Of a stretch of DNA of 33,974 bases, positions 720-17,496 are shown in pieces. Location: NCBI GenBank assembly GCA_025782395.1, contig JALGZD010000144.1, positions 1 to 33,974 on the forward strand, written 5' to 3'. The notes beneath the pieces are model-generated. The model was given only the letters and a program-made list of their open reading frames with translations, ran no database searches and was not told where the DNA came from. A program made the translations under genes and the position numbers. Position 1 is the stretch's first letter. Each line of letters starts with the position of its first letter. The stretch is from a bacterium (GTDB taxonomy: Bacteria; Joyebacterota; Joyebacteria; Joyebacterales; Joyebacteraceae).

Positions 720-863
720 CGCGGCGAGTAGCAGAACCTGGGGGGGGTGCTCAAGACGCTTTACAGATAGGGCCGCGGTTCATCGTCACGGGCGGAGATG
801 TGGGCCGAGGAACTCGCCACGAGACTGAGCGAACCGGTTTGAAGCTCGCAGGTGACGCGCTCC

Positions 864-870
864 GTTAGAT
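864..870 (+). other. GTTRRRY heptamer, possible attC/attI right core
   Basis: The sequence GTTAGAT matches the GTTRRRY core at which integron integrases cut. It lies 27 bases before the start of the small membrane protein gene at 898, and CAGGTGACGCGC stands just left of it. A second heptamer follows the same gene (1367-1373), so the two bracket one small gene as a cassette would be. No matching left arm is clear in 720-863. A 7-base motif alone is weak evidence. Confidence 0.28.
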
Positions 871-897
871 GAGTTGGGTCCCGATATGGAGGGGAGC

Positions 898-1305
898 ATG
901 TTGCTCAAGGCTGTCGCAGTCTGGTTTGTGCTGATGGTGCTTGCCATTGCCAATGGTGTGTTCTGGAACTCCATAGTCTCGCCTCGGATCGGCGAACATG
1001 GTGGCCATATCTTCAGCACGATGGTGCTGTGCTTCATCATCCTTGTTGTTGCCTGGGGTACAATCGACTGGATCGGACCGCGCACAGGCCGGGAAGCCCT
1101 GCAGGTCGGAGTTCTCTGGGTTGCGATGACCCTGGGCTTCGAGTTCCTTGCCGGGCACTACGTATTCGGGAATCCGTGGGAGAAGCTGTTTGCGGACTAC
1201 AATATCGCTGGAGGTCGGATCTGGGCACTCGTTCCAGTAGCGAGCCTGATCGCGCCGCGGTTGGCGGCGGCGATGAAGGGACTCTTCGAGCCCCCAGCTA
1301 CCTAG
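898..1305 (+). CDS. Small four-helix integral membrane protein
   Basis: The protein has 135 residues and about four hydrophobic segments (near 1-20, 33-55, 66-90 and 108-125). The conserved-looking core reads G-F-E-F-L-A-G-H-Y-V-F-G followed by W-E-K-L. I recognise the general type, a widespread hypothetical inner-membrane protein, but no function is known to me. The start at 898 is chosen because GGAG at 888-891 sits six bases upstream; ATG 886 and TTG 874 are in-frame alternatives without a better ribosome site. The gene is flanked by GTTAGAT and GTTGGAT heptamers and ends just before a GC-rich element resembling an attC site, so it may be a mobile cassette gene. Confidence 0.75.
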   Translation: MLLKAVAVWFVLMVLAIANGVFWNSIVSPRIGEHGGHIFSTMVLCFIILVVAWGTIDWIGPRTGREALQVGVLWVAMTLGFEFLAGHYVFGNPWEKLFADYNIAGGRIWALVPVASLIAPRLAAAMKGLFEPPAT

Positions 1306-1373
1306 CCAGCGCGGCCAGGCCGCACTCGCCGCTCCAGCCTCAGCGCTCGCAGTTGATGCGCAGTTTGTTGGAT
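1303..1373 (+). other. attC-like element after the small membrane protein
   Basis: The element starts at the TAG stop of the preceding gene and ends in GTTGGAT (1367-1373), a perfect GTTRRRY core. An inner right arm, GTTGATGCGC (1352-1361), is nearly identical to the arm GCTGATGCGC at 5401-5410. The left arm (CTAGCCAGCGCGG) pairs poorly, so if this is an attC it is eroded. Its orientation matches the other candidates, with the gene on the left and the core on the right. Confidence 0.35.
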
Positions 1374-1413
1374 GACTGCCGCTCTGAACAGGGAACCACC
1401 CGAGGGGGTTCAA

Positions 1414-2712
1414 ATGAGAGACTGTTTTGCTGTGATCGCAGCCGCACTGATGATTCTGGCTGCAGTCTCAGCCTCTGCCGTGACCCACATCGTAGACGGA
1501 TCGGGGGGCGGCGACTTCGAGACTGTCCAGGCAGCCGTGGATGCTGCGAGCACCGGCGACACGCTGCTCATCCGTGCCGGCATCTATGAGGAGAACGTGC
1601 TCGTCATCGGTTCATTCATGACGTGGATTGGGGAGGGGGCGGGCGTCACGATCATCCGAGCGGCGGCAGCCGAGCCTGCGATACTGATGGAGAACGCAGG
1701 CATTTCGGCGAGCACCAGCACATTCCGCTCGCTGACGGTCGAGTCCCACATCGGCAATCCTGCTGCCGTCGTGTGGGATGAAGGCTACGGCCGTTTTCAC
1801 GACTGTGAACTCGCCGGTGATGTCGGTGGTGGGGAGATCTGGGGCGGCCTGTTGCTGGAGAACTGCTCCGCGTGGCACGCCTACGCGGCAGGAGGCGATG
1901 TATCCTCCTTCATCGGGAACTGCACATTGAGCAGCCTGAGTATCAGTGGTGTCTACGTGTTCGGTTCTGGCGGTGCGTCCTACTGGAGAAGCTCATATGT
2001 TGAGGTAGAGGATTCCACCGTAGGGGATGTCCACTTGACGTGGGCCTCGCTTGAGGCTGCCAGCAGTACCATCGGTCCAGTCTCAGGCACTGGCGATTCG
2101 AGCGGGTGCGAGGCCACGGAATGCGAGCTCGGAACCATAGAGCTCGGGAGCGCAGCTATGGACCTCCGCAACTGCACTGTCGATGGTGGCATTGCCGTAG
2201 ACGGGTGGCTCGGCATCGACTACTGGCATGCAGGTGACCTTGTGCTCGTTGAGACCTTGATAGAGGGGGGGATCACAGTCGACCTCGTCATGCTGGCGGA
2301 TTCCCCCTTCGGAGGAATCCATATTGTCCATAGCACAGTGGTTGGTGGCATCAACTACTCGGTCAACTGCGATGACTTCTTCGTTTGGCCCTGTCGAATC
2401 CGGAGCAGCGTGTTCACCAACGAGGTCGAGCTTCCATCCGACCCTTCATGGTGGTGGCCCGTGATCAGTCACAACGATTTCGTCGGGGGATTTGCGGTTC
2501 CTCCCGCCGATTCCGTCTACGCGAACATCAGCGCCGATCCTCTTTTCTGTGGTGAGATGGACTACGAGCTCCAGGAGTGTTCGCCGTGCGTTGGGGCCGG
2601 GCACGACGGCGGCGACATGGGAGTGTACGGAGTTGGGTGCCCATGCTACTCGACCGTGGAATCGAGGAGTTGGGGCGCAATCAAGGCGATGTACCGACAG
2701 TCATCTGACTAG
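1414..2712 (+). CDS. Secreted right-handed beta-helix protein
   Basis: The protein has 432 residues. A signal peptide (about residues 1-21, ending A-S-A) is followed by a pectate-lyase-like opening, G-D-F-E-T-V-Q-A-A-V-D-A-A, then G-D-T-L-L-I-R-A-G-I-Y. Degenerate beta-helix rungs rich in C-T-V, S-T-V and S-T-I follow. The C-terminus carries a Cys-rich closing segment and the tail S-R-S-W-G-A-I-K-A-M-Y-R, shared with the minus-strand protein at 2775-4010. ATG 1414 is chosen because GAGGGGG (1402-1408) precedes it and the signal peptide begins there; ATG 1372 lies upstream in frame. No catalytic residues are visible, so a surface structural or binding role is as likely as an enzyme. The gene lies between two attC-like elements. 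Confidence 0.82.
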   Translation: MRDCFAVIAAALMILAAVSASAVTHIVDGSGGGDFETVQAAVDAASTGDTLLIRAGIYEENVLVIGSFMTWIGEGAGVTIIRAAAAEPAILMENAGISASTSTFRSLTVESHIGNPAAVVWDEGYGRFHDCELAGDVGGGEIWGGLLLENCSAWHAYAAGGDVSSFIGNCTLSSLSISGVYVFGSGGASYWRSSYVEVEDSTVGDVHLTWASLEAASSTIGPVSGTGDSSGCEATECELGTIELGSAAMDLRNCTVDGGIAVDGWLGIDYWHAGDLVLVETLIEGGITVDLVMLADSPFGGIHIVHSTVVGGINYSVNCDDFFVWPCRIRSSVFTNEVELPSDPSWWWPVISHNDFVGGFAVPPADSVYANISADPLFCGEMDYELQECSPCVGAGHDGGDMGVYGVGCPCYSTVESRSWGAIKAMYRQSSD

Positions 2713-2720
2713 CGCATGCT
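2709..2720 (+). other. CTAGCGCATGC motif over a stop codon (attC-like left arm)
   Basis: The TAG stop of the beta-helix gene is embedded in CTAGCGCATGC, the same motif found at the end of the NUDIX gene (7581-7591) and closely related to TAACGCATGC at 5334-5343. No complementary right arm was found in 2721-2775, before the end of the convergent gene. If this is an attC remnant, its right half is lost or was replaced when the minus-strand block came to lie beside it. Confidence 0.25.
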
Positions 2721-2774
2721 TCTGCCCGCCGGAGGCGCGTGCGTGGCCGACCGGGGCGTGCCGTCGCGGCGAAG

Positions 2775-4010
2775 TTACCTGTACATCGCTTTGATGATTC
2801 CCCAGCTTCTCTCTTCGATCGCGGAGTAGCCGCACCCTTGTTCATGCGCGCCGATCAGAACTCCGTGGGGGTTGTTGAGCGGCATGCACGGTGAGTTCTC
2901 GTGGAGCGTCAGGTCGCCTGACGCGAGATCGCAGAAGAGCGGGTCCTCCCACACCGTTCCGCTGTGGCTTCCGCAGAGCGAGTCGCCGCTCGCGTTCCCG
3001 AACACGCAGCACCGCGTGAAGGTGGGGAGGCCGAGGTCGGCGCAGTGGATGGCGGCGACGCCGGTGTCGTCGAACGCGAAGATAGTCCTGTCGATCGACG
3101 GGTTCGACTTCCACAGATAGACGCTCGTGCCCCAGGCTGCGCAGTTCCGCGTGAACGTGTTGTTGACCAGCACGCAGTCGATGGAGTCCTGGATGAGTAG
3201 TGCTCCTCCTCGCGGCGCCTCGTTTTCGATGAATGTGCAGCCTTGGATGATGGGCGCGACGCACGCCTGGAAGTGAATGGCCCCGCCACCTAGAACCAGT
3301 CCGTCCCCCGAGGATGAGTTGCTCACGAACACGCAGTTGCTGAGCTCCGGGCTAGCGGAGCGGACCCAGATCGCGCCGCCCCTTTTCGGACACGTGTTTC
3401 CCTTGAAGTAACAGTCCTGGATGATCGGTTCGGCGAACGCCGCGTAGACCGCGCCACCGTGGTCATCACGGCTCCTGTTTCCGATGAACGAGCACTGCCC
3501 GAGAAAGGGGCTTCCTCCGTCCACGCACCAGACAGCACCGCCGCTGCTTGCCGAGCAGTTCTCGAAGATGATGCCCGTGATGATGGGTGAGGTGTAGTCG
3601 CACGAAATGCCCGCTCCGCCGTGGTAGAGACCGACATATCCGTTCCGGATGGTGATATCGCGCAGGCACGTGCTGAGGCCCTCGCCGTTGTGGAACACGA
3701 ACCCGCGGTGCTCGTTTCCCGGGCCGCCTTCGAGGTCGATGATGCAGGTAGAGGCGTCCCCGCTCTGCGAGCGGACCGTGATGCCCTTGCCGAGGAAGTT
3801 GACATCGACGTTGCCTGCTCCTGTGAACACGCCGTCGGTGAGAAGAATGGTGTCGCCCTCGGCGGCCCCGACGATCGCTTCCTTGATCGTGGCGAAGTCA
3901 CCGGTGCCGTCAGGCTTGACGAGATGCGTGGCGGAGAGAGCGTCGGCGGGGGGGAGGAGCAGAACCGAGGCCGCGGCGAGCAGTATCAATAGAGCGAGCA
4001 GTGAGCGCAT
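2775..4010 (-). CDS. Secreted right-handed beta-helix (Pmp-like repeat) protein
   Basis: The protein has 411 residues with an N-terminal signal peptide (L-L-A-L-L-I-L-L-A-A, cleavage near residue 25). It opens with G-D-F-A-T-I-K-E-A-I and G-D-T-I-L-L-T-D-G-V-F, as parallel beta-helix proteins do. At least four rungs carry the G-G-A-[IV] motif with C-x-F-x-x-N (for example G-G-A-V-Y-A, G-G-A-I-W-V, G-G-A-I-H-F, G-G-A-L-L-I), typical of polymorphic-membrane-protein-like repeats. The C-terminus E-E-R-S-W-G-I-I-K-A-M-Y-R matches the neighbouring convergent protein. GGGAGG (plus-strand 4018-4023) supports the start. It lies 71 bases downstream of the OmpA lipoprotein gene on the same strand and may be co-transcribed. 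Likely role: cell-surface or secreted structure or adhesion, by inference. Confidence 0.87.
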   Translation of the reverse strand: MRSLLALLILLAAASVLLLPPADALSATHLVKPDGTGDFATIKEAIVGAAEGDTILLTDGVFTGAGNVDVNFLGKGITVRSQSGDASTCIIDLEGGPGNEHRGFVFHNGEGLSTCLRDITIRNGYVGLYHGGAGISCDYTSPIITGIIFENCSASSGGAVWCVDGGSPFLGQCSFIGNRSRDDHGGAVYAAFAEPIIQDCYFKGNTCPKRGGAIWVRSASPELSNCVFVSNSSSGDGLVLGGGAIHFQACVAPIIQGCTFIENEAPRGGALLIQDSIDCVLVNNTFTRNCAAWGTSVYLWKSNPSIDRTIFAFDDTGVAAIHCADLGLPTFTRCCVFGNASGDSLCGSHSGTVWEDPLFCDLASGDLTLHENSPCMPLNNPHGVLIGAHEQGCGYSAIEERSWGIIKAMYR

Positions 4011-4081
4011 CGCTTCGCCTCCCGTTGCGTGGTGAGTGGCCGGCGCGCCGTGCGCGGTACGATGAGCGTGAATGAGCCCCC

Positions 4082-4750
4082 CTACTCCAGCTCACCGCGC
4101 TCCGCGGCGGCCTTCAGTCTATCGTTGGCCATGATGGCCACTTCGACGCGGCGGTTCTGCTGTTTGCCCTCGAGGGTTTCGTTCGATGCCACGGGCTGCG
4201 TCTCGCCGTACCACGTGATGGTCATGCGTGCAGCTGTAACGGAGTACTCGACGAGATAGCCGGCAACCGACCGTGAACGTCGCTCCGAGAGGTCCATGTT
4301 GTGCGCCTCGGACCCGTCCGAATCCGTGTGACCCTCGATGAGGATGTCGGTGTCGGGGTACTTGTTGAGGATCCTGGCAAGCTCGGTGAGGTTCTCCTTC
4401 GACGCGGGCCGGAGATCCGACTTGTCGACATCGAAGAGGATGCCCGAGTCGAACGTTATCCTGATGCCCTCGCCGATGCGCTCGACCGTCGCACCCTCGA
4501 TGTCCTGCTCGATCTCCTCGGCTTGATCGTCCATGTAGTTGCCGATGGCGGCGCCGGCCGCACCGCCGATGACGGCGCCCAAGATCGCGCCGATGGCCGT
4601 GTTGCCGGAGGCGTCTCCGATGGCCCCGCCGACGACCGCGCCTGTGCCCGCGCCGATGAGGAGACCCCTGTCGCTTCGGGACATGGAGGCGCACCCGGCG
4701 AGCGATGCGATGAGCGTGAGTGTCAGCAGCACGACAAGCAGCTTTTTCAT
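4082..4750 (-). CDS. OmpA-family lipoprotein with glycine-zipper segment
   Basis: The protein has 222 residues. Its lipoprotein signal ends in L-A-G-C (Cys20), the site of lipidation. A glycine-zipper region follows (about residues 28-70; G-A-G-T-G-A-V-V-G-G-A-I-G), which could insert in the membrane. The C-terminal OmpA domain shows F-D-V-D-K-S-D-L, E-G-H-T-D-S-D-G, L-S-E-R-R-S-R-S-V and Q-N-R-R-V-E-V-A-I. The layout matches the YiaD-like family. The start at 4750 is chosen over 4789 because GAGGAGG stands six bases upstream of it and the signal peptide begins there. It would anchor the outer membrane to peptidoglycan. It is transcribed divergently from the 2TM gene, across 279 bases. Confidence 0.92.
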   Translation of the reverse strand: MKKLLVVLLTLTLIASLAGCASMSRSDRGLLIGAGTGAVVGGAIGDASGNTAIGAILGAVIGGAAGAAIGNYMDDQAEEIEQDIEGATVERIGEGIRITFDSGILFDVDKSDLRPASKENLTELARILNKYPDTDILIEGHTDSDGSEAHNMDLSERRSRSVAGYLVEYSVTAARMTITWYGETQPVASNETLEGKQQNRRVEVAIMANDRLKAAAERGELE

Positions 4751-4967
4751 ATGATACCTCCTCAAGATGAGGGAGATTCTGCTCTTCATGGGACGTCGGG
4801 AAGCCTGACGTGTTCACTGCGGTCGTGTCAAGCGGTTCCGGGCGTGCTGGAGCAGATCATCTTCGAGGAGAGTGGCTTCTTCATGTACTCGACACGTGCG
4901 GCAGAGTGCGTGGGCTGTGTCGAAGCAGTCTCATCTTGTGCGCCGTGCCTGTCCGTGGCATGCTATG

Positions 4968-4994
4968 TTGAGAGGCTCGTGCAGGAGCCTCAAA
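4968..4994. other. Inverted repeat in the divergent intergenic region
   Basis: GAGGCTC and GAGCCTC are perfect 7-base arms separated by GTGCAG, with partly complementary TTGA/CAAAG flanks. The repeat lies about 35 bases before the 2TM gene, in the 279-base divergent spacer (4751-5029). It could be an operator or a transcript hairpin in the leader of the 2TM gene. There is no T-run after it, so a terminator is unlikely. Nothing else clear was seen in this spacer. Confidence 0.3.
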
Positions 4995-5029
4995 GGTGTT
5001 TGTGACAAGGGCTCCAGGAGGGATGCAAG

Positions 5030-5308
5030 ATGGACGAGCAAGCGAGGTACGAGGAAGCGAGGAAGCGCGTCGCGGAGATCAAGGGCTTCTACCAGCACGT
5101 CGTGACATACTTGATTATCAACGCAGCTCTTTTCGTCATCAACCTCCTGATGTCTCCCGGCTACTTCTGGTTCGTCTGGCCACTCGCGGGGTGGGGAATC
5201 GGTGTTGCGCTTCACGCGGTCTCCGTGTTCGGCGGATTCTGGGGGAAGCCGTGGGAGGAGCGCAAGATCAAGGAGCTCATGGACAGGGATGGGTCCTCGG
5301 GGGAGTAG
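5030..5308 (+). CDS. 2TM domain-containing membrane protein
   Basis: The protein has 92 residues. A charged N-terminal helix (E-E-A-R-K-R-V-A-E-I-K-G-F-Y-Q-H) leads into two transmembrane segments (about 24-44 and 48-70) joined by a short P-G-Y-F-W-F-V-W-P turn, then W-E-x-R-K-I-K-E-L at the end. This matches the 2TM (PF13239-type) family, which occurs alone or fused to histidine-kinase-like sensors. GGAGGG precedes the ATG. It stands alone here, so its partner, if any, is elsewhere. An attC-like element begins 23 bases after its stop. Confidence 0.85.
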   Translation: MDEQARYEEARKRVAEIKGFYQHVVTYLIINAALFVINLLMSPGYFWFVWPLAGWGIGVALHAVSVFGGFWGKPWEERKIKELMDRDGSSGE

Positions 5309-5330
5309 CTGAGCTCAGGGTCTGAGGCCT

Positions 5331-5422
5331 GAGTAACGCATGCAGCGACCGTGCCACGGCGCGGTCGACAGCACCGGCCGCGCCGGCCTTCACGCCCGCG
5401 GCTGATGCGCGATTCGTAAGAC
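5331..5422 (+). other. attC-like recombination site (best candidate)
   Basis: The left side is GAGTAAC (5331-5337) running into CGCATGCAGCG (5337-5347). The right side is GCTGATGCGC (5401-5410), then GTAAGAC (5416-5422). The inner arms pair as CGCAT-CAGC with ATGCG-GCTG, leaving one unpaired G (5342). A single extrahelical base in the left arm is a hallmark of attC. The ~50-base centre holds further GC-rich palindromes (for example CCGTGCCACGG). GTAAGAC departs from GTTRRRY at the third base, and GAGTAAC departs from RYYYAAC, so the site may be inactive. The next gene starts 18 bases beyond the core, as in cassettes. Confidence 0.45.
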
Positions 5423-5440
5423 GCAAGACGACGGGGGCGT

Positions 5441-6229
5441 ATGCCGGTCAAATGGATAGATGTCTCATCGCTTTCATTCAATGCCCTGTTGCTGCTCGAG
5501 GGGGTTCAACTCAGTTGGTTCCCTGGCTGGCTGCCGGAGACTGAACTGGCCATCGCTCTCAGGGCCAATCCAGTTGTGGAATGGTACATGCGGCACAAGT
5601 GTCCGGAGTTGAATGGATGGCTGGATGGAGTAATGGCGAGGGCGGGGGAGAGCCGGTTATTGGAACCCGAGGAGGTCCGCCTGGCTGAAGAAGCCATCAT
5701 GAGGACCATCAATGACCTGCTGACCTATGCAGTTGACCCAGCAGCATATGACGTGCAGCTGTTCTTGGAATGGGATGCACACGAGCTGGTTTCCCTGGTC
5801 GATTTCACCGGGAGGACAGTGATCGACATCGGCAGTGGCACAGGGCGATTGGCCCTGATCGCCGCTGAGAAGGCAGAGGCGGTGTATGCCGTGGAGCTGG
5901 TTGCCAACTTGCGGGAGTATCTGAAGGACAAAGCCGGGAACCAGGGACTGAGGAACGTCTACGCCGTTGATGGTCTGATCACAGACCTGCCATTCTCGGA
6001 TAGGTTTGCAGATGTAACGATGGAAGGTCACGTATTCGGGGATCAGCTTGAGGAAGAGTATCGAGAGATGGTGCGGGTGACGAAGCCGGGAGGAATGGTG
6101 ATACTCTGTCCGGGCAGTGTTGACCGAGACGATGACAGGCATCGCTTTCTCGTTTCGAAGGGATTCGAGTGGTCTCGGTTTGAGGAGCCCGGTGAGGGAG
6201 TGGTGCGGAAGTATTGGAAGAGGGTTTGA
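5441..6229 (+). CDS. Class I SAM-dependent methyltransferase
   Basis: The protein has 262 residues. Motif I is V-I-D-I-G-S-G-T-G-R-L-A-L (residues 127-139), followed by the acidic motif II (V-Y-A-V-E-L), D-G-L-I-T-D-L-P-F and the post-motif K-P-G-G-M-V-I-L-C. The N-terminal ~110 residues form a separate helical region with A-N-P-V-V-E-W-Y-M-R-H-K-C-P-E, seen in a subset of bacterial methyltransferases of unknown substrate. A G-run (5433-5437) stands just before the ATG. The gene follows an attC-like element and is followed after 54 bases by another, unrelated methyltransferase. The substrate cannot be told from sequence. Confidence 0.85.
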   Translation: MPVKWIDVSSLSFNALLLLEGVQLSWFPGWLPETELAIALRANPVVEWYMRHKCPELNGWLDGVMARAGESRLLEPEEVRLAEEAIMRTINDLLTYAVDPAAYDVQLFLEWDAHELVSLVDFTGRTVIDIGSGTGRLALIAAEKAEAVYAVELVANLREYLKDKAGNQGLRNVYAVDGLITDLPFSDRFADVTMEGHVFGDQLEEEYREMVRVTKPGGMVILCPGSVDRDDDRHRFLVSKGFEWSRFEEPGEGVVRKYWKRV

Positions 6230-6283
6230 GAGCGGGAATGCGGTCCGGTGGATCCCCGCGCGACGTGTTCCCAGGAAGACACA

Positions 6284-6940
6284 ATGCCGCAGACCAAGCC
6301 ATTTGATGAGCATGCGAGCGCGTACGACCACTGGTTTGAAGAGAACGCGCTCGCGTACGAATCTGAGCTGCAGGCCGTCAGGACTCTGCTGCCCGACTGC
6401 CGCGATCCTCTCGAGGTCGGTGTCGGATCCGGTCGCTTCGCCGGCCCTCTGGGAATCGCGGCCGGCGTGGAACCGTCTCGTGCAATGGCTGATCTTGCTC
6501 GGCGCCGGGGTATCCGTGTCGTCGAAGCTGCTGCCGAGTGCCTGCCTTTTGACGATGCGTCCTTCGATCTCGTGCTCATGGTGACGACGATCTGCTTCCT
6601 TGATGACATAGGCCGGTCGTTCAGCGAGGCGCATCGGGTTCTGACGGCCGGCGGGTACTTCGTCGTCGGCTTCCTGGACCGCGAGACCGAACTCGGGGGG
6701 GCCTACGAGGAGCACAAGGCGGACAGCGTGTTCTATCGCACGGCGCGGTTCAGCTCATCCAGGGAGATTCTCGCCCAGTTCGCGCGGGCCGGTTTCGTGG
6801 ATCTGACTTCCGTCCAGACGATCTTCGCAGCGCCCAGCACAATGGAACGTCTGTCGGAGGCTGTGCCGGGCTACGGAACGGGCCTGTTTGTGGTAATGCG
6901 CGGTAGGAAACCCCTGGCCGAAGCCAGGGCGCCTAGGTAA
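6284..6940 (+). CDS. Class I SAM-dependent methyltransferase (Methyltransf_11 type)
   Basis: The protein has 218 residues. It opens with P-F-D-E-H-A-S-A-Y-D-H-W-F, typical of UbiE/Methyltransf_11 proteins. Motif I is E-V-G-V-G-S-G-R-F (44-52). Then come G-V-E-P-S-R-A-M (motif II), A-E-C-L-P-F-D-D-A-S-F-D (motif III/IV) and H-R-V-L-T-A-G-G-Y-F-V-V-G. ATG 6284 is preferred over 6248 because AGGAAG precedes it and the family alignment begins there. It shares only the fold with the preceding methyltransferase, so the two are not a duplication. The TAA stop is part of TAACGCTTGC, a variant of the recurring gene-end motif. The substrate is unknown. Confidence 0.87.
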   Translation: MPQTKPFDEHASAYDHWFEENALAYESELQAVRTLLPDCRDPLEVGVGSGRFAGPLGIAAGVEPSRAMADLARRRGIRVVEAAAECLPFDDASFDLVLMVTTICFLDDIGRSFSEAHRVLTAGGYFVVGFLDRETELGGAYEEHKADSVFYRTARFSSSREILAQFARAGFVDLTSVQTIFAAPSTMERLSEAVPGYGTGLFVVMRGRKPLAEARAPR

Positions 6941-6949
6941 CGCTTGCAT
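6936..6949 (+). other. GGTAACGCTTGC motif over a stop codon (attC-like left core)
   Basis: The TAA stop of the methyltransferase lies in GGTAACGCTTGC. TAAC is the end of the attC left core RYYYAAC, and CGCTTGC differs by one base from the CGCATGC arm at 5337-5343. The next gene starts about 48 bases later. A possible GCTGCACGATGG stretch (6960-6971) is too poor a partner to call a full site. Confidence 0.22.
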
Positions 6950-6987
6950 CAATCAAAGGCTGCACGATGGCGGCACATGGAGAAGCG

Positions 6988-7584
6988 ATGGATATCCTTG
7001 AGCTCCTTGACGAGATCCGAATCCTCGCGTCGAACGGGCTGGAGTATGCGGACAACGAGTACGATCGCGAACGGTACACGCGCCTCACGGAGCTTGTGGC
7101 AGAGTACTATGGACGGGCGCTCGAGTTGCCGTCTTCTGAGGTGCGAGAGCGTTTCCGGGCCGAACTGGGTCACATCACTCCGAAAGTGGGTGGTGACGGC
7201 GCGATCTTCGATGATTCCGGCTGCATTCTACTGTTGCGGCGGGTGGACAGTGGTACGTGGTGTCTTCCGTGTGGGTGGACTGAGCCGGGTGAGGCTCCGT
7301 TGCAGACAGTCGTGCGCGAGGTGAAGGAGGAAACCGGGCTGGATGTCCGTCCCACAGAGCTTGTGGGCCTGTTCCCACGGCCGGCGGGTGGCATCAATGG
7401 TCCTCACGCTGTGATCTCAGTACTCTACCTCTGCGAAGTGGAGGGAGGGTCGTTGGCATGCTCCTCTGAAGGATTGGAGCTTCGATACTGGGAGATAGAT
7501 GAAGTACCCGTCTGGTACGCGCACCACGAAAGGCTGGCACGCGCTGCGCGAGATGCGATTGGCGATGTCGCAACGTCCGACTAG
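6988..7584 (+). CDS. NUDIX hydrolase with NUDIX_N domain (ADP-ribose pyrophosphatase-like)
   Basis: The protein has 198 residues. The N-terminal ~60 residues ([19 protein letters not shown]) match the NUDIX_N domain. The catalytic Nudix box fits G-x5-E-x7-R-E-V-x-E-E-x-G-L exactly (encoded near 7270-7340), with the Mg2+-binding glutamates intact. Such proteins hydrolyse nucleoside diphosphate derivatives, often ADP-ribose or sugar nucleotides; the exact substrate is open. Start 6988 is chosen because GGAGAAG lies just upstream and family members begin M-D-x-L-x-L-L-D; ATG 6967 is the alternative. The TAG stop sits inside the CTAGCGCATGC motif. Confidence 0.9.
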
Positions 7585-7650
7585 CGCATGCAGCGCACGC
7601 GAAGGATCCGTCGCGCCAGGCCGGCGTCCGCAGCCAATGCGCGGTTTCCC
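7581..7650 (+). other. attC-like element after the NUDIX gene
   Basis: CTAGCGCATGCAGCG (7581-7595) overlaps the gene's TAG stop and is identical over CGCATGCAGCG to the left arm of the 5331-5422 element. About 35 bases later, CGCAGCCAATGCGC (7629-7642) supplies ATGCGC, complementary to GCGCAT. A core would be expected at GGTTTCCC (7643-7650), but it does not match GTTRRRY. It reads as a decayed copy of the same kind of site. Confidence 0.33.
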
Positions 7651-7691
7651 AGGCAGTCATCGTAGGTCAGTCCCGGTCTGTGGAGGGCGCT

Positions 7692-8507
7692 GTGGTTCTT
7701 GAGCGGTTGGCGGATCTAAGTCCCGTAGTGCAGGCGCTGGTGGCGGGGTGCTTCACCTGGTTGGTGACGGCCCTAGGAGCAGGCGCCGTCGTTTTTTTCA
7801 GCGCCATCAACAGGAAGATGCTGGATGGGATGCTTGGGTTCGCCGCAGGCGTCATGATCGCTGCGAGTTTCTGGTCGCTTCTGGCTCCGGCAATCGAGAT
7901 GATGGATGGCTCTAGTCTGCCTGTCTGGTTTCCCGCTGCGGTGGGATTCCTGCTGGGCGGATTCTTCCTGTGGGGTTTGAACAAGACGTTGCCCCACCTC
8001 CACATCGGGCTTCCGGTGGAAGCGGCGGAAGGACCGGCAACACACTGGCACAGAAGTACCCTCCTTGTTCTCGCGATTACGCTGCACAATATCCCGGAAG
8101 GGCTGGCTGTCGGAGTGGCTTTCGGAGCGGTGGCTGCTGATCTTCCGTCGGCCACTCTCGCCGGCGCAGTGGCGCTGGCGCTTGGGATCGCCATCCAGAA
8201 CTTCCCTGAGGGGACGGCTGTCTCGGTCCCGCTTCGCGGGGACGGCATGTCTCGGCTGCGTAGCTTCTGGTATGGTCAGCTCTCCGGAGCAGTTGAGCCG
8301 GTTGCCGCAGTGATCGGCGCTGCGGCAGTGGTATCGATCAGAGCGCTGCTCCCATATGCTCTGGGTTTCGCGGCGGGCGCGATGATATTCGTCGTGGTCG
8401 AGCAACTGGTTCCGGAATCACAACTCAGGAAGAACACAGATGTCGCAACTGCGGGCGCGATGTTTGGCTTCGTCCTGATGATGGTATTGGATGTGGCGTT
8501 GGGTTGA
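7692..8507 (+). CDS. ZIP-family divalent metal transporter (GufA/ZupT-like)
   Basis: The protein has about 271 residues and roughly eight transmembrane helices. Helix IV carries [10 protein letters not shown] and helix V carries N-F-P-E-G-T-A-V-S. These two motifs hold the metal-binding His, Asn, Pro and Glu of ZIP carriers, which import Zn2+, Mn2+ or Fe2+ into the cytoplasm. The variable loop is short (H-L-H-I-G, H-W-H). GTG 7692 is favoured because GGAGG (7682-7686) lies five bases upstream; GTG 7680 is in frame. The TGA stop overlaps ATG 8507 of a short reading frame. The exact metal is not deducible. Confidence 0.9.
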
Positions 8508-8645
8508 TGTTCAGTGGCTGGCTGCTTCGCGCCCTCTTGCTCGTGGTCGCACTCGGTTGTGACGATACACGTATTGAGTCTCGGAACGGTGACTGGGAAG
8601 CGATCTGGGGAGGAAGGAAAACCAGATGCGTAGTCTGCTCAGCAG
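8507..8645 (+). pseudogene. Possible truncated lipoprotein start, or leader, before the MFS gene
   Basis: ATG 8507 overlaps the ZIP stop (T-G-A-T-G), a coupling arrangement. It encodes [20 protein letters not shown], a convincing lipoprotein signal with Cys18. The frame then loses protein-like character and runs out of frame into the MFS gene. This could be the remnant of a lipoprotein gene or a coincidence in a leader. Within the same gap, GGGGAGGAAGG (8607-8617) is well placed for ATG 8626, an eight-codon frame (M-R-S-L-L-S-R-W, stop at 8650) overlapping the MFS start. Confidence 0.25.
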
Positions 8646-8657
8646 ATGGTAGACTAC
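8630..8657. other. Inverted repeat spanning the MFS start codon
   Basis: GTAGTCT (8630-8636) and AGACTAC (8651-8657) are perfect inverted arms. A second pair, CTGCT and AGCAG (8635-8639 and 8641-8645), overlaps the first and would form an alternative small hairpin. The ATG at 8646 lies between the arms. Folding of the mRNA could hide that start and favour ATG 8661. It may act as a translation switch; no terminator-like T-run follows. Confidence 0.3.
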
Positions 8658-10482: not shown

Positions 10483-10869
10483 ATGAAGATAGCCATTGCA
10501 TCAGACGACGGAAAGACGATCGCGTCACACTTCGGACGGACGAGAGGTTTCGTGATCGTGGAGACCAAGGACGGGAAGATCACGGGCAACGAGTACCGGT
10601 CGAACACCTTCACGGCCCACGTGACGGGGCTCGAGGGCGAGTCACAGGCGGACAATCGACATGGCCCTATCCTGAACGCGTTGTCCGATTGCCAGGTCGT
10701 CGTCGCACGCGGCATGGGACGACGCATATACGACGATCTCGCGGCAGCCGACATAGAGGTCTTTGTGACAAACGAGGTCGAAGCAGAGAAAGCCGCCGAG
10801 CAGTATCTCATGGGGAAGCTCGTGGATAACCCGGATCAGACGTGCGACCACTCAGTCGACGAAGACTAG
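10483..10869 (+). CDS. NifX/NifB-like dinitrogenase cofactor-domain protein
   Basis: The protein has 128 residues. It starts M-K-I-A-I-A-S-D-D-G-K-T-I-A-S-H-F-G-R and continues with I-L-N-A-L-S-D-C-Q-V-V-V-A-R-G-M-G, both typical of the PF02579 fold that binds FeMo-co precursors in NifX/NafY. Stand-alone members are common in organisms that do not fix nitrogen, where their role is unclear; no nif gene is seen in this window. The Cys (in D-C-Q) and His (in S-H-F-G) could ligate metal or a cluster. GAGGTCGAG precedes the ATG. The gene is 34 bases upstream of the dihydroorotate-dehydrogenase-like gene. Confidence 0.9.
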   Translation: MKIAIASDDGKTIASHFGRTRGFVIVETKDGKITGNEYRSNTFTAHVTGLEGESQADNRHGPILNALSDCQVVVARGMGRRIYDDLAAADIEVFVTNEVEAEKAAEQYLMGKLVDNPDQTCDHSVDED

Positions 10870-15741: not shown

Positions 15742-17496
15742 ATGGCGAAGAACGACACGGAACGTGCCCTCGATTTCGTAAGGGCGAGGGTGGAAGAGGA
15801 CAACCGGACCGGGCGGTTCGATGGACGCGTTCAGACGCGTTTCCCGCCCGAGCCGAACGGCTACCTTCACATAGGTCATGCGAAGGCGTTCACCCTCAAC
15901 TTCTCGATCGCCGATGAGTACGGAGGTCTATGCAACCTCCGATTCGACGACACGAATCCGACCAGGGAGGAGACGGAGTACGTTGACCAGATCCAGGAGG
16001 ACATCCATTGGATGGGGTTCGATTGGGGCAACCGTCTCTTCTACGCGTCGGACTATTTTGATCGGCTCTACGAGTATGCGCTCGAGCTCATCAGGCTCGG
16101 AAAGGCGTATGTCTGCGACCTCTCGCAGGAGGAGATGCGCGAGTACCGCGGGACACTGACCGAGAAGGGGCGGAACAGCCCGTACCGCGACCGCTCGGTT
16201 GAGGAGAACACAGAGCTCTTCGAGCGCATGAAGGCGGGGGAGTTCCCAGACGCTTCGAGGACGCTTCGCGCGAAGATCGACATGGCCTCGCCGAACATCA
16301 ACATGCGCGACCCCGTTATATACCGCATTCTCCACGCCTCACACCACCGGACGGGTAACAAGTGGTGCATCTATCCCATGTACGATTTCACCCACTGCCT
16401 GTCGGATTCCATCGAACGCATCACGCACTCGAACTGCTCGATCGAGTTCGAGGATCACAGGCCGCTCTACGACTGGTTCCTCGACGAACTGAACGTCTAT
16501 CACCCGCAACAGATCGAGTTTGCGCGTCTGAACCTCACGCGCACGATTCTCAGCAAACGGAAGCTCGTTCGCCTCGTGGATGGAGGGCTCGTGTGGGGGT
16601 GGGACGATCCACGCATGCCGACGATAGCCGGGCTCAGACGACGCGGCTACACGCCCGAGGCCATCAGGGATTTCCTGGGCCGCGTCGGTGTGGCCAAGAC
16701 GCCGACGACCATCGAGATTGAGCTTCTTGAGCACTGTCTGCGTGACGACCTGAACGCGCGTGCGCAGAGGGTTATGGTCGTTCTCAGGCCGCTCAAGGTC
16801 GTGATCGAGAACTACCCCGAGGGGCAGGTCGAGGAGCTCGATGCCATCAACAACCCTGAGGAAGAAGGGGCGGGAACGAGGAAGATCCCGTTCTCGCGCG
16901 TCATCTACATCGAACGTGGCGATTTCCACGAAGATCCCCCAAAGAAATTCTTTCGGCTGGCTCCCGGACGCGAGGTCAGGCTCAAACACGCCTACTTCAT
17001 CACGTGCCGCGAAGTGGTGAGGGACCCCGCGACGGGCGAAGTCGTCGAACTGAGATGCACCTACGATCCCGAAACGCGCGGTGGCGACGCGCCGGACGGT
17101 CGCAAGGTCAAAGGAACGCTCCACTGGGTCTCGGCGGAGCACGCCCTCGATGCTGAGGTGAGGTTATTCGATCATCTGTTGCTCGAGGCTCCGCCCGAGG
17201 AGAGGACTCTCCCGGGAGAGGAGCTTTCAGCCGACGGCGAGGCGATCTCGGATGCGGCAGGCGTCGCGCAGGACTTCACCGATCTGATCAACCCGGATTC
17301 GCTGGAAACCCTCGTGAGCTGCAAGGTGGAGCCGAGTCTGGCGAGTGCAGAGCCGGGCACGCCATACCAGTTCATGCGACACGGCTACTTCACGATCGAT
17401 TCCGTTGATTCGCCGGCCGGAAGCCTCGTCTTCAATCGCTCGGTTGGCCTGAGAGACACGTGGGCGAAGATAGCGAAGGCGCAGGGGAAGAGCTAG
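15742..17496 (+). CDS. glnS: Glutaminyl-tRNA synthetase
   Basis: The protein has 584 residues and charges tRNA-Gln with glutamine. The class I signature H-I-G-H is at residues 43-46 in [12 protein letters not shown], and the KMSKS equivalent I-L-S-K-R-K-L is at 269-275. R-F-D-D-T-N-P, D-W[11 protein letters not shown] and [11 protein letters not shown] mark the GlnRS branch rather than GluRS. The C-terminal anticodon-binding beta-barrels include A-x-F-x-R-x-G-Y-F-type sequence ([10 protein letters not shown]). Its presence suggests direct glutaminylation rather than the GatCAB route alone. The sirtuin gene begins just after its stop. Confidence 0.96.

Follow-up and report, generated by a model that had tools for sequence, protein, structure and literature searches.

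In integrons, the substrate that the integrase IntI recombines with attI is the bottom strand of attC in its folded form, and new cassettes enter beside attI while older ones are pushed outward (PMC11023631, PMC9024848). Sedentary chromosomal integrons, of which the Vibrio superintegron and the ilvD integrons of Xanthomonas are examples, have an IntI, tens of cassettes and near-identical attC sites typical of the lineage, and occupy a fixed chromosomal place with a cassette content that varies between species. Clusters of attC sites without an integrase (CALINs) have been proposed to be degraded integrons (PMC9024848). In archaeal integrons, attI has been reported immediately downstream of intI (PMC9668308). 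Candidatus Eisenbacteria is absent from a 2021 list of integron phyla (PMC8618304), and a literature search of partial coverage found no integron report for this group.

We analysed a stretch of 33,974 nucleotides (the window) from the genome of an uncultivated bacterium of Candidatus Eisenbacteria. The segment 5327–5422 of this window is very probably the decayed attC of a former cassette, most likely the 2TM gene plus its attC, in the distal and oldest section of a chromosomal integron of the sedentary type. The integron shares with those of Vibrio and Xanthomonas the traits listed above; it differs in its host, and in that related genomes have the array on the 3′ side of intI and on its strand. 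As in a CALIN, several attC relics stand on a contig that has no integrase. However, the pattern of at least two attC sites without a nearby integrase holds for the contigs as assembled, and the assembly breaks at repeats; the array may run on to the integrase contig, and default tools may miss its attC sites because of their wear. The attC sites of mobile integrons and the VCRs share the R″/L″...L′/R′ layout, a left arm with an extrahelical base and, in the intact copies, the GTTRRRY box, whereas the arms here (TAGCGCATGCAGC...GCTGATGCG) are lineage-specific and the segment 5327–5422 is devoid of the GTT/AAC triplets. Integrons of the sedentary chromosomal kind, clusters without an integrase and degraded arrays are already known; a useful decay series is added here. 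The features of the locus are given in Table 1.

Table 1. Relic attC sites, genes and array boundary in the window
Feature	Position	Strand	Remarks
Relic attC, right arm	840–870	+	Intact R′ GTTAGAT at 864–870; gAAGCTCGCAGGTGACGCGCTCCGTTAGAT against array ACGCTCGCAGCTGATGCGCGGTTGTTAGAT; arm score 28, null maximum 25
Cassette gene, membrane protein of unknown family (135 aa)	898–1305	+	Starts shortly after R′ here and after an attC in G002
Relic attC, well-kept right arm	1300–1373	+	R′ GTTGGAT at 1367–1373; right-arm PWM 26.9, null maximum 8.5
Cassette gene, weakly pectinesterase/beta-helix-like secreted protein	1414–2712	+	PF01095 below cut-off; 3′ end orthologous to a gene of G001:C105
Truncated attC, left arm only	2703–2719	+	ATCTGACTAGCGCATGC at the end of gene 1414–2712; score 26, null maximum 22
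2TM-domain protein gene	5030–5308	+	Directly upstream of 5327–5422; PF13239, E 8e-31
Decayed attC (by descent)	5327–5422	+	Equivalents of R″ (GCCTGAG, 5327–5333) and R′ (GTAAGAC, 5416–5422)
Inner arms of the above	5337–5346, 5401–5409	+	Left CGCATGCAGC with extrahelical G5342; right GCTGATGCG
SAM methyltransferase gene, next cassette	5441–6229	+	18 bp past R′; Pfam
Second methyltransferase gene	6248–6940	+	PF08241
Probable truncated attC, left arm only	6931–6948	+	GCCTAGGTAACGCTTGCA; overlaps stop codon of second methyltransferase gene; score 20
NUDIX hydrolase gene	6967–7584	+	Homolog bounded on both sides by intact attC sites in a sister genome
Decayed attC	7575–7654	+	At NUDIX gene end; left-arm PWM 20.8, right-arm PWM 11.9
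Approximate chromosomal boundary of array, gene remnant	8515–8635	+	Upstream part kept in G001–G004, replaced here

RESULTS

Layout and folding of the segment 5327–5422

A reading made from the sequence alone had proposed an attC with two arms that pair save for one base, and the letters confirm this pairing: CGCAT and CAGC, on either side of the unpaired G5342, pair with ATGCG and GCTG of the right arm. The palindrome is imperfect and its left arm bears an extrahelical base, as is typical of attC. The position of the segment is also that of an attC, 3′ of a cassette gene and followed by the next gene after R′: the upstream gene ends at 5308, and the ATG at 5441 is 18 bases beyond the right core, a spacing given correctly in that reading. 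Its right core was observed to be the R′ equivalent; its left core, GAGTAAC at 5331–5337, was not in register with the intact sites, which place R″ four bases to the left.

Neither box agrees with the RYYYAAC/GTTRRRY consensus. The AAC triplet of R″ reads GAG, the GTT triplet of R′ reads GTA, four of the seven box pairs remain, and the outer stem is gone together with the second extrahelical position. When the bottom strand was folded as DNA, z-scores of −0.67 and −0.88 were obtained against dinucleotide shuffles, which is not beyond chance, and the fold had no R-box pairing; three intact sites tested in the same way gave −3.5 to −5.1. Shuffles were not beaten with either strand of the segment. 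The structural argument of the earlier reading therefore does not suffice.

It is unlikely that the segment is still a functional attC in which the departures in the boxes are tolerated. Both inner arms and the extrahelical G are retained, and R′ varies at other sites of this genome too, as such tolerance would have it; the altered triplets, the lost box pairs and outer stem and a fold indistinguishable from that of shuffles argue against it.

Homology to the attC sites of the same genome

That the segment is a real attC follows from its homology to attC sites of the same genome and not from its fold. About 18 other stretches of the genome are 78–86% identical to 5369–5422 or parts of it (BLAST, 41–54 bases), the best of them with E-values of 6e-11 to 3e-8. 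Most of these copies are textbook attC sites of the form GCCTAAC-TAG-CGCATGCAGCCGnCGAGC...GCTCGCAGCTGATGCG-CGGTT-GTTAGGC, having complementary R″ and R′ and the extrahelical G. They keep one strand per contig and are mostly ∼0.3–3 kb apart, so that the sites to which the segment is homologous have the arrangement of a cassette array.

A covariance model of 15 intact-type sites (R1), which was trained on sites of this same genome and is hence not an independent attC model, gave the segment 29.8 bits (window E 4e-4, genome-wide E 0.036), and a broader model (R2) gave it 33.3 bits (E 1.6e-4). The right-arm PWM score was 31.3, the shuffle maximum being 8.5. The R1 search of the genome scored 150 of the 2156 candidates from a first look. 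Of these, all that were listed with at least 18 bits fell on attC-bearing contigs; at least 33 strong attC sites (46 bits or more), a lower bound given that sampling, were found on 14 other contigs, each contig having a single orientation. Antisense echoes of the strong sites scored 22–42 bits, as expected for palindromes.

These data bear on the possibility that the segment is an inverted repeat that arose by chance, or a plain repeat between genes (REP-like or a terminator). The G+C content of the region, 71%, and the insignificant fold would suit such an origin, and an Rfam search, run at the gathering threshold and at E 10, gave no relevant match. The identity to sites with attC boxes, arm scores far above those of shuffles, the absence of an Rfam match, the single strand per contig and the cassette context together make it hardly credible. 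Many copies of the sequence beside unrelated operons had been named beforehand as evidence for a plain repeat; the copies are many, but they are attC sites with matching R″ and R′, on one strand per contig, and the cassette content varies between sister genomes.

We therefore classify the segment as a decayed attC by descent and not as an intact one: on its letters, both boxes have left the consensus and three of their seven pairs are lost, while intact copies elsewhere in the genome conform. The suggestion in the sequence-only reading that an attC with deviating cores may be decayed is borne out by this homology, the R1 score and the loss of the boxes.

Further attC relics in the window

The segment had also been called the best candidate attC of the window. 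It is an attC by descent, but not a lone one; it is one of about six relics. Arm-profile scans and arm alignments revealed five others within 840–7654, all on the + strand, two of which consist of left arms only (Table 1). The left part of the relic at 840–870 is past recognition. For the relic at 1300–1373, R1 gave 18.4 bits (1233–1372). In G001:C105, the orthologous end of gene 1414–2712 continues into an attC-like TGATTAGCGCATGCAGCC...GATGTCAGGC, and only the left half of this is present here, at 2703–2719. The score at 6931–6948 equals the 95% point of the null and is weak when taken alone; its position between two genes fits. The other four relics are convincing.

The block 2723–4990 has two genes on the opposite strand and no attC. 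These minus-strand genes (2775–4789; a beta-helix protein and an OmpA/glycine-zipper protein) break the relic array directly after the half attC at 2703–2719, and their homologs sit elsewhere in the sister genomes. It looks like a later insertion that cut this attC.

The integron integrase of the genome

The absence of an integrase noted in the earlier reading is true of the window, but not of the genome. A full-length integron integrase is encoded at C13:93076–94161 (TIGR02249, 436 bits; cut-off 265). Its best named relative, at 85%, is in record JAUVLP010000138.1 of Candidatus Eisenbacteria CSMAG_509. A partial tyrosine recombinase on contig C222 was considered as a second IntI and rejected.

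Contig C13 stops ∼310 bp past intI. The link between intI and the array is visible in related genomes, where the attC array directly follows the 3′ end of intI and shares its strand (G001, G006 and G007), and the attC family is present in 16 of the 20 genomes of the phylum examined. The genome thus has an integron-type integrase and at least 33 similar attC sites at a stable chromosomal place, as sedentary chromosomal integrons do. The genes ispG and glnS, taken as the two ends of the array, were never on one contig in the genomes searched. Candidate attI sites 3′ of intI (L118–L120) share a motif like CCTAGTTGTCGTTAGGC / CTAATTGTAGTTAGGC / CCTAAGTGTAGTTAGAC directly before the first cassette.

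Array edge and decay along the array

From about 8515 rightwards the window matches four same-genus genomes, the longer pieces mostly at 82–95%, so that the right flank of the array is the same in all of them; this flank, with the MFS gene at 8646 and glnS at 15742 among others, has been conserved within the genus, and the draft contigs carry it in pieces. To the left of this point, matches are scattered and the gene order differs. In the window the order is OmpA gene, 898-gene (898–1305), further genes, 2TM gene, methyltransferase genes, NUDIX gene, ZIP-transporter gene and flank; in G003 it is NUDIX, 2TM, OmpA and flank, and in G002 OmpA, 898-gene and flank. The boundary gene, longer in G001–G004, is cut at ∼8515, and the ZIP-transporter gene (7680–8507) is in the place of its upstream part. 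The edge of the array thus seems to have eaten into a neighbouring gene at 8515–8635.

Sister genomes have attC sites at the places of some of the relics. The NUDIX homolog of G001:C233 (2901–3525) lies between intact attC sites at 2751–2868 and 3506–3623 (122 and 133 bits), and the relic at 7575–7654 occupies the place of the second of them (132.6 bits). An attC precedes the NUDIX homolog in G003:C44. The 898-gene block starts ∼16 bp after the R′ box ending at 870 and, in G002, ∼16 bp after an attC (33.5 bits) that ends at 1389. The homologous block common to the window and G001 starts at 868.

The left end of the window and the right end of another contig of the genome, C203, have 112 identical bases in common; one or two bases differ at the extreme ends of the contigs. 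A single OmpA-family gene spans this join, and does so likewise in G003 and G002. From the overlap and this synteny, we take C203 and the window as one stretch. Along C203, R2 scores of 108, 87 and 86 were observed at 1.4–3.3 kb and of at most 25 from 5.7 kb; in the window they are at most 33. The fall is not strictly stepwise, as the segment 5327–5422 is better preserved than its neighbours on either side. The scores give a gradient of attC decay along a single array, from C203 into the window.

We have also considered that a lone cassette was inserted outside the array, at a secondary target of the attG type, by an integrase acting in trans. The integrase is indeed on another contig, and insertion at off-target sites has been proposed as one source of attC clusters without an integrase (PMC8618304). 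However, the same 7 kb contain five more relics of the same strand, C203 with its good attC sites abuts the window, and the cassettes at this place of the chromosome vary from one sister genome to another, all of which render such an insertion very unlikely.

Genes of the array

The 2TM gene is likely to be the cassette gene of the decayed attC at 5327–5422. It was found in 8 of the 21 genomes searched (its own included), in other contexts, with no clear attC after it. For the methyltransferase gene at 5441–6229, the search for an empty site found no close homolog in the same-genus genomes.

Pairwise dN/dS values of the OmpA, 898-, NUDIX and 2TM genes and of the 3′ end of gene 1414–2712 were 0.06–0.26 (898-gene, 0.17–0.22; NUDIX gene, 0.09), close to the 0.07–0.13 of the flanking MFS gene; these values are averages for the whole divergence and do not single out the period that followed the decay of the sites. 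They suggest that the cassette genes are kept by purifying selection while their attC sites rot.

A repeat of up to ∼190 bp (...CTGCCTTCCTGGTCGGAGGGG..TACCCGCAGCTT) was observed upstream of cassette genes on C203 (L016), at 2478–2670, 4993–5143 and 10717–10768, and also in G004:C137, before the 2TM gene, and in G002:C333, before the OmpA gene. It had no Rfam match in L016 and is possibly a shared leader or promoter element. Beta-helix/pectinesterase-like secreted proteins recur next to intI (G006:C16 and G008:C24) or within arrays (window 1414–2712; G000:C43:1162–1341), and cassettes of this lineage may commonly carry such proteins.

DISCUSSION

Descent of the segment 5327–5422 from an attC of the sedentary integron would be explained as follows. 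Sites distant from attI would no longer be tested by recombination and would decay, while useful genes would be retained by selection as their distal attC sites wear. The loss of the GTT/AAC triplets and of the complementarity between R″ and R′ should stop IntI from using the segment. As this use should be lost, the genes on its two sides would now be fixed chromosomal genes; genes that were probably mobile as cassettes in the past look fixed today. Several observations count against our explanation, namely the related genomes in which the 2TM gene has no attC flanks, the block 2723–4990 with its two opposite-strand genes and no attC, the end of the integrase contig so soon after intI, the weakness of the relic at 6931–6948 when taken alone, and the training of R1 on sites of the same genome.

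Tentatively, and with somewhat more doubt than confidence, we propose that attC decay acts as a one-way ratchet in this lineage. Along one continuous array, sites would wear the further they lie from the integrase while purifying selection maintains their genes, and the distal end would steadily make mobile cassettes permanent and erode the neighbouring chromosome.

Most knowledge of integrons comes from a few cultured groups, and a lineage-specific attC family with its integrase is now described in a candidate phylum. The array forms a series from intact to ruined attC sites with the genes intact, which lets the shift from mobile cassette to ordinary gene be measured. It also suggests that the eroded ends of arrays are longer than attC finders would report.
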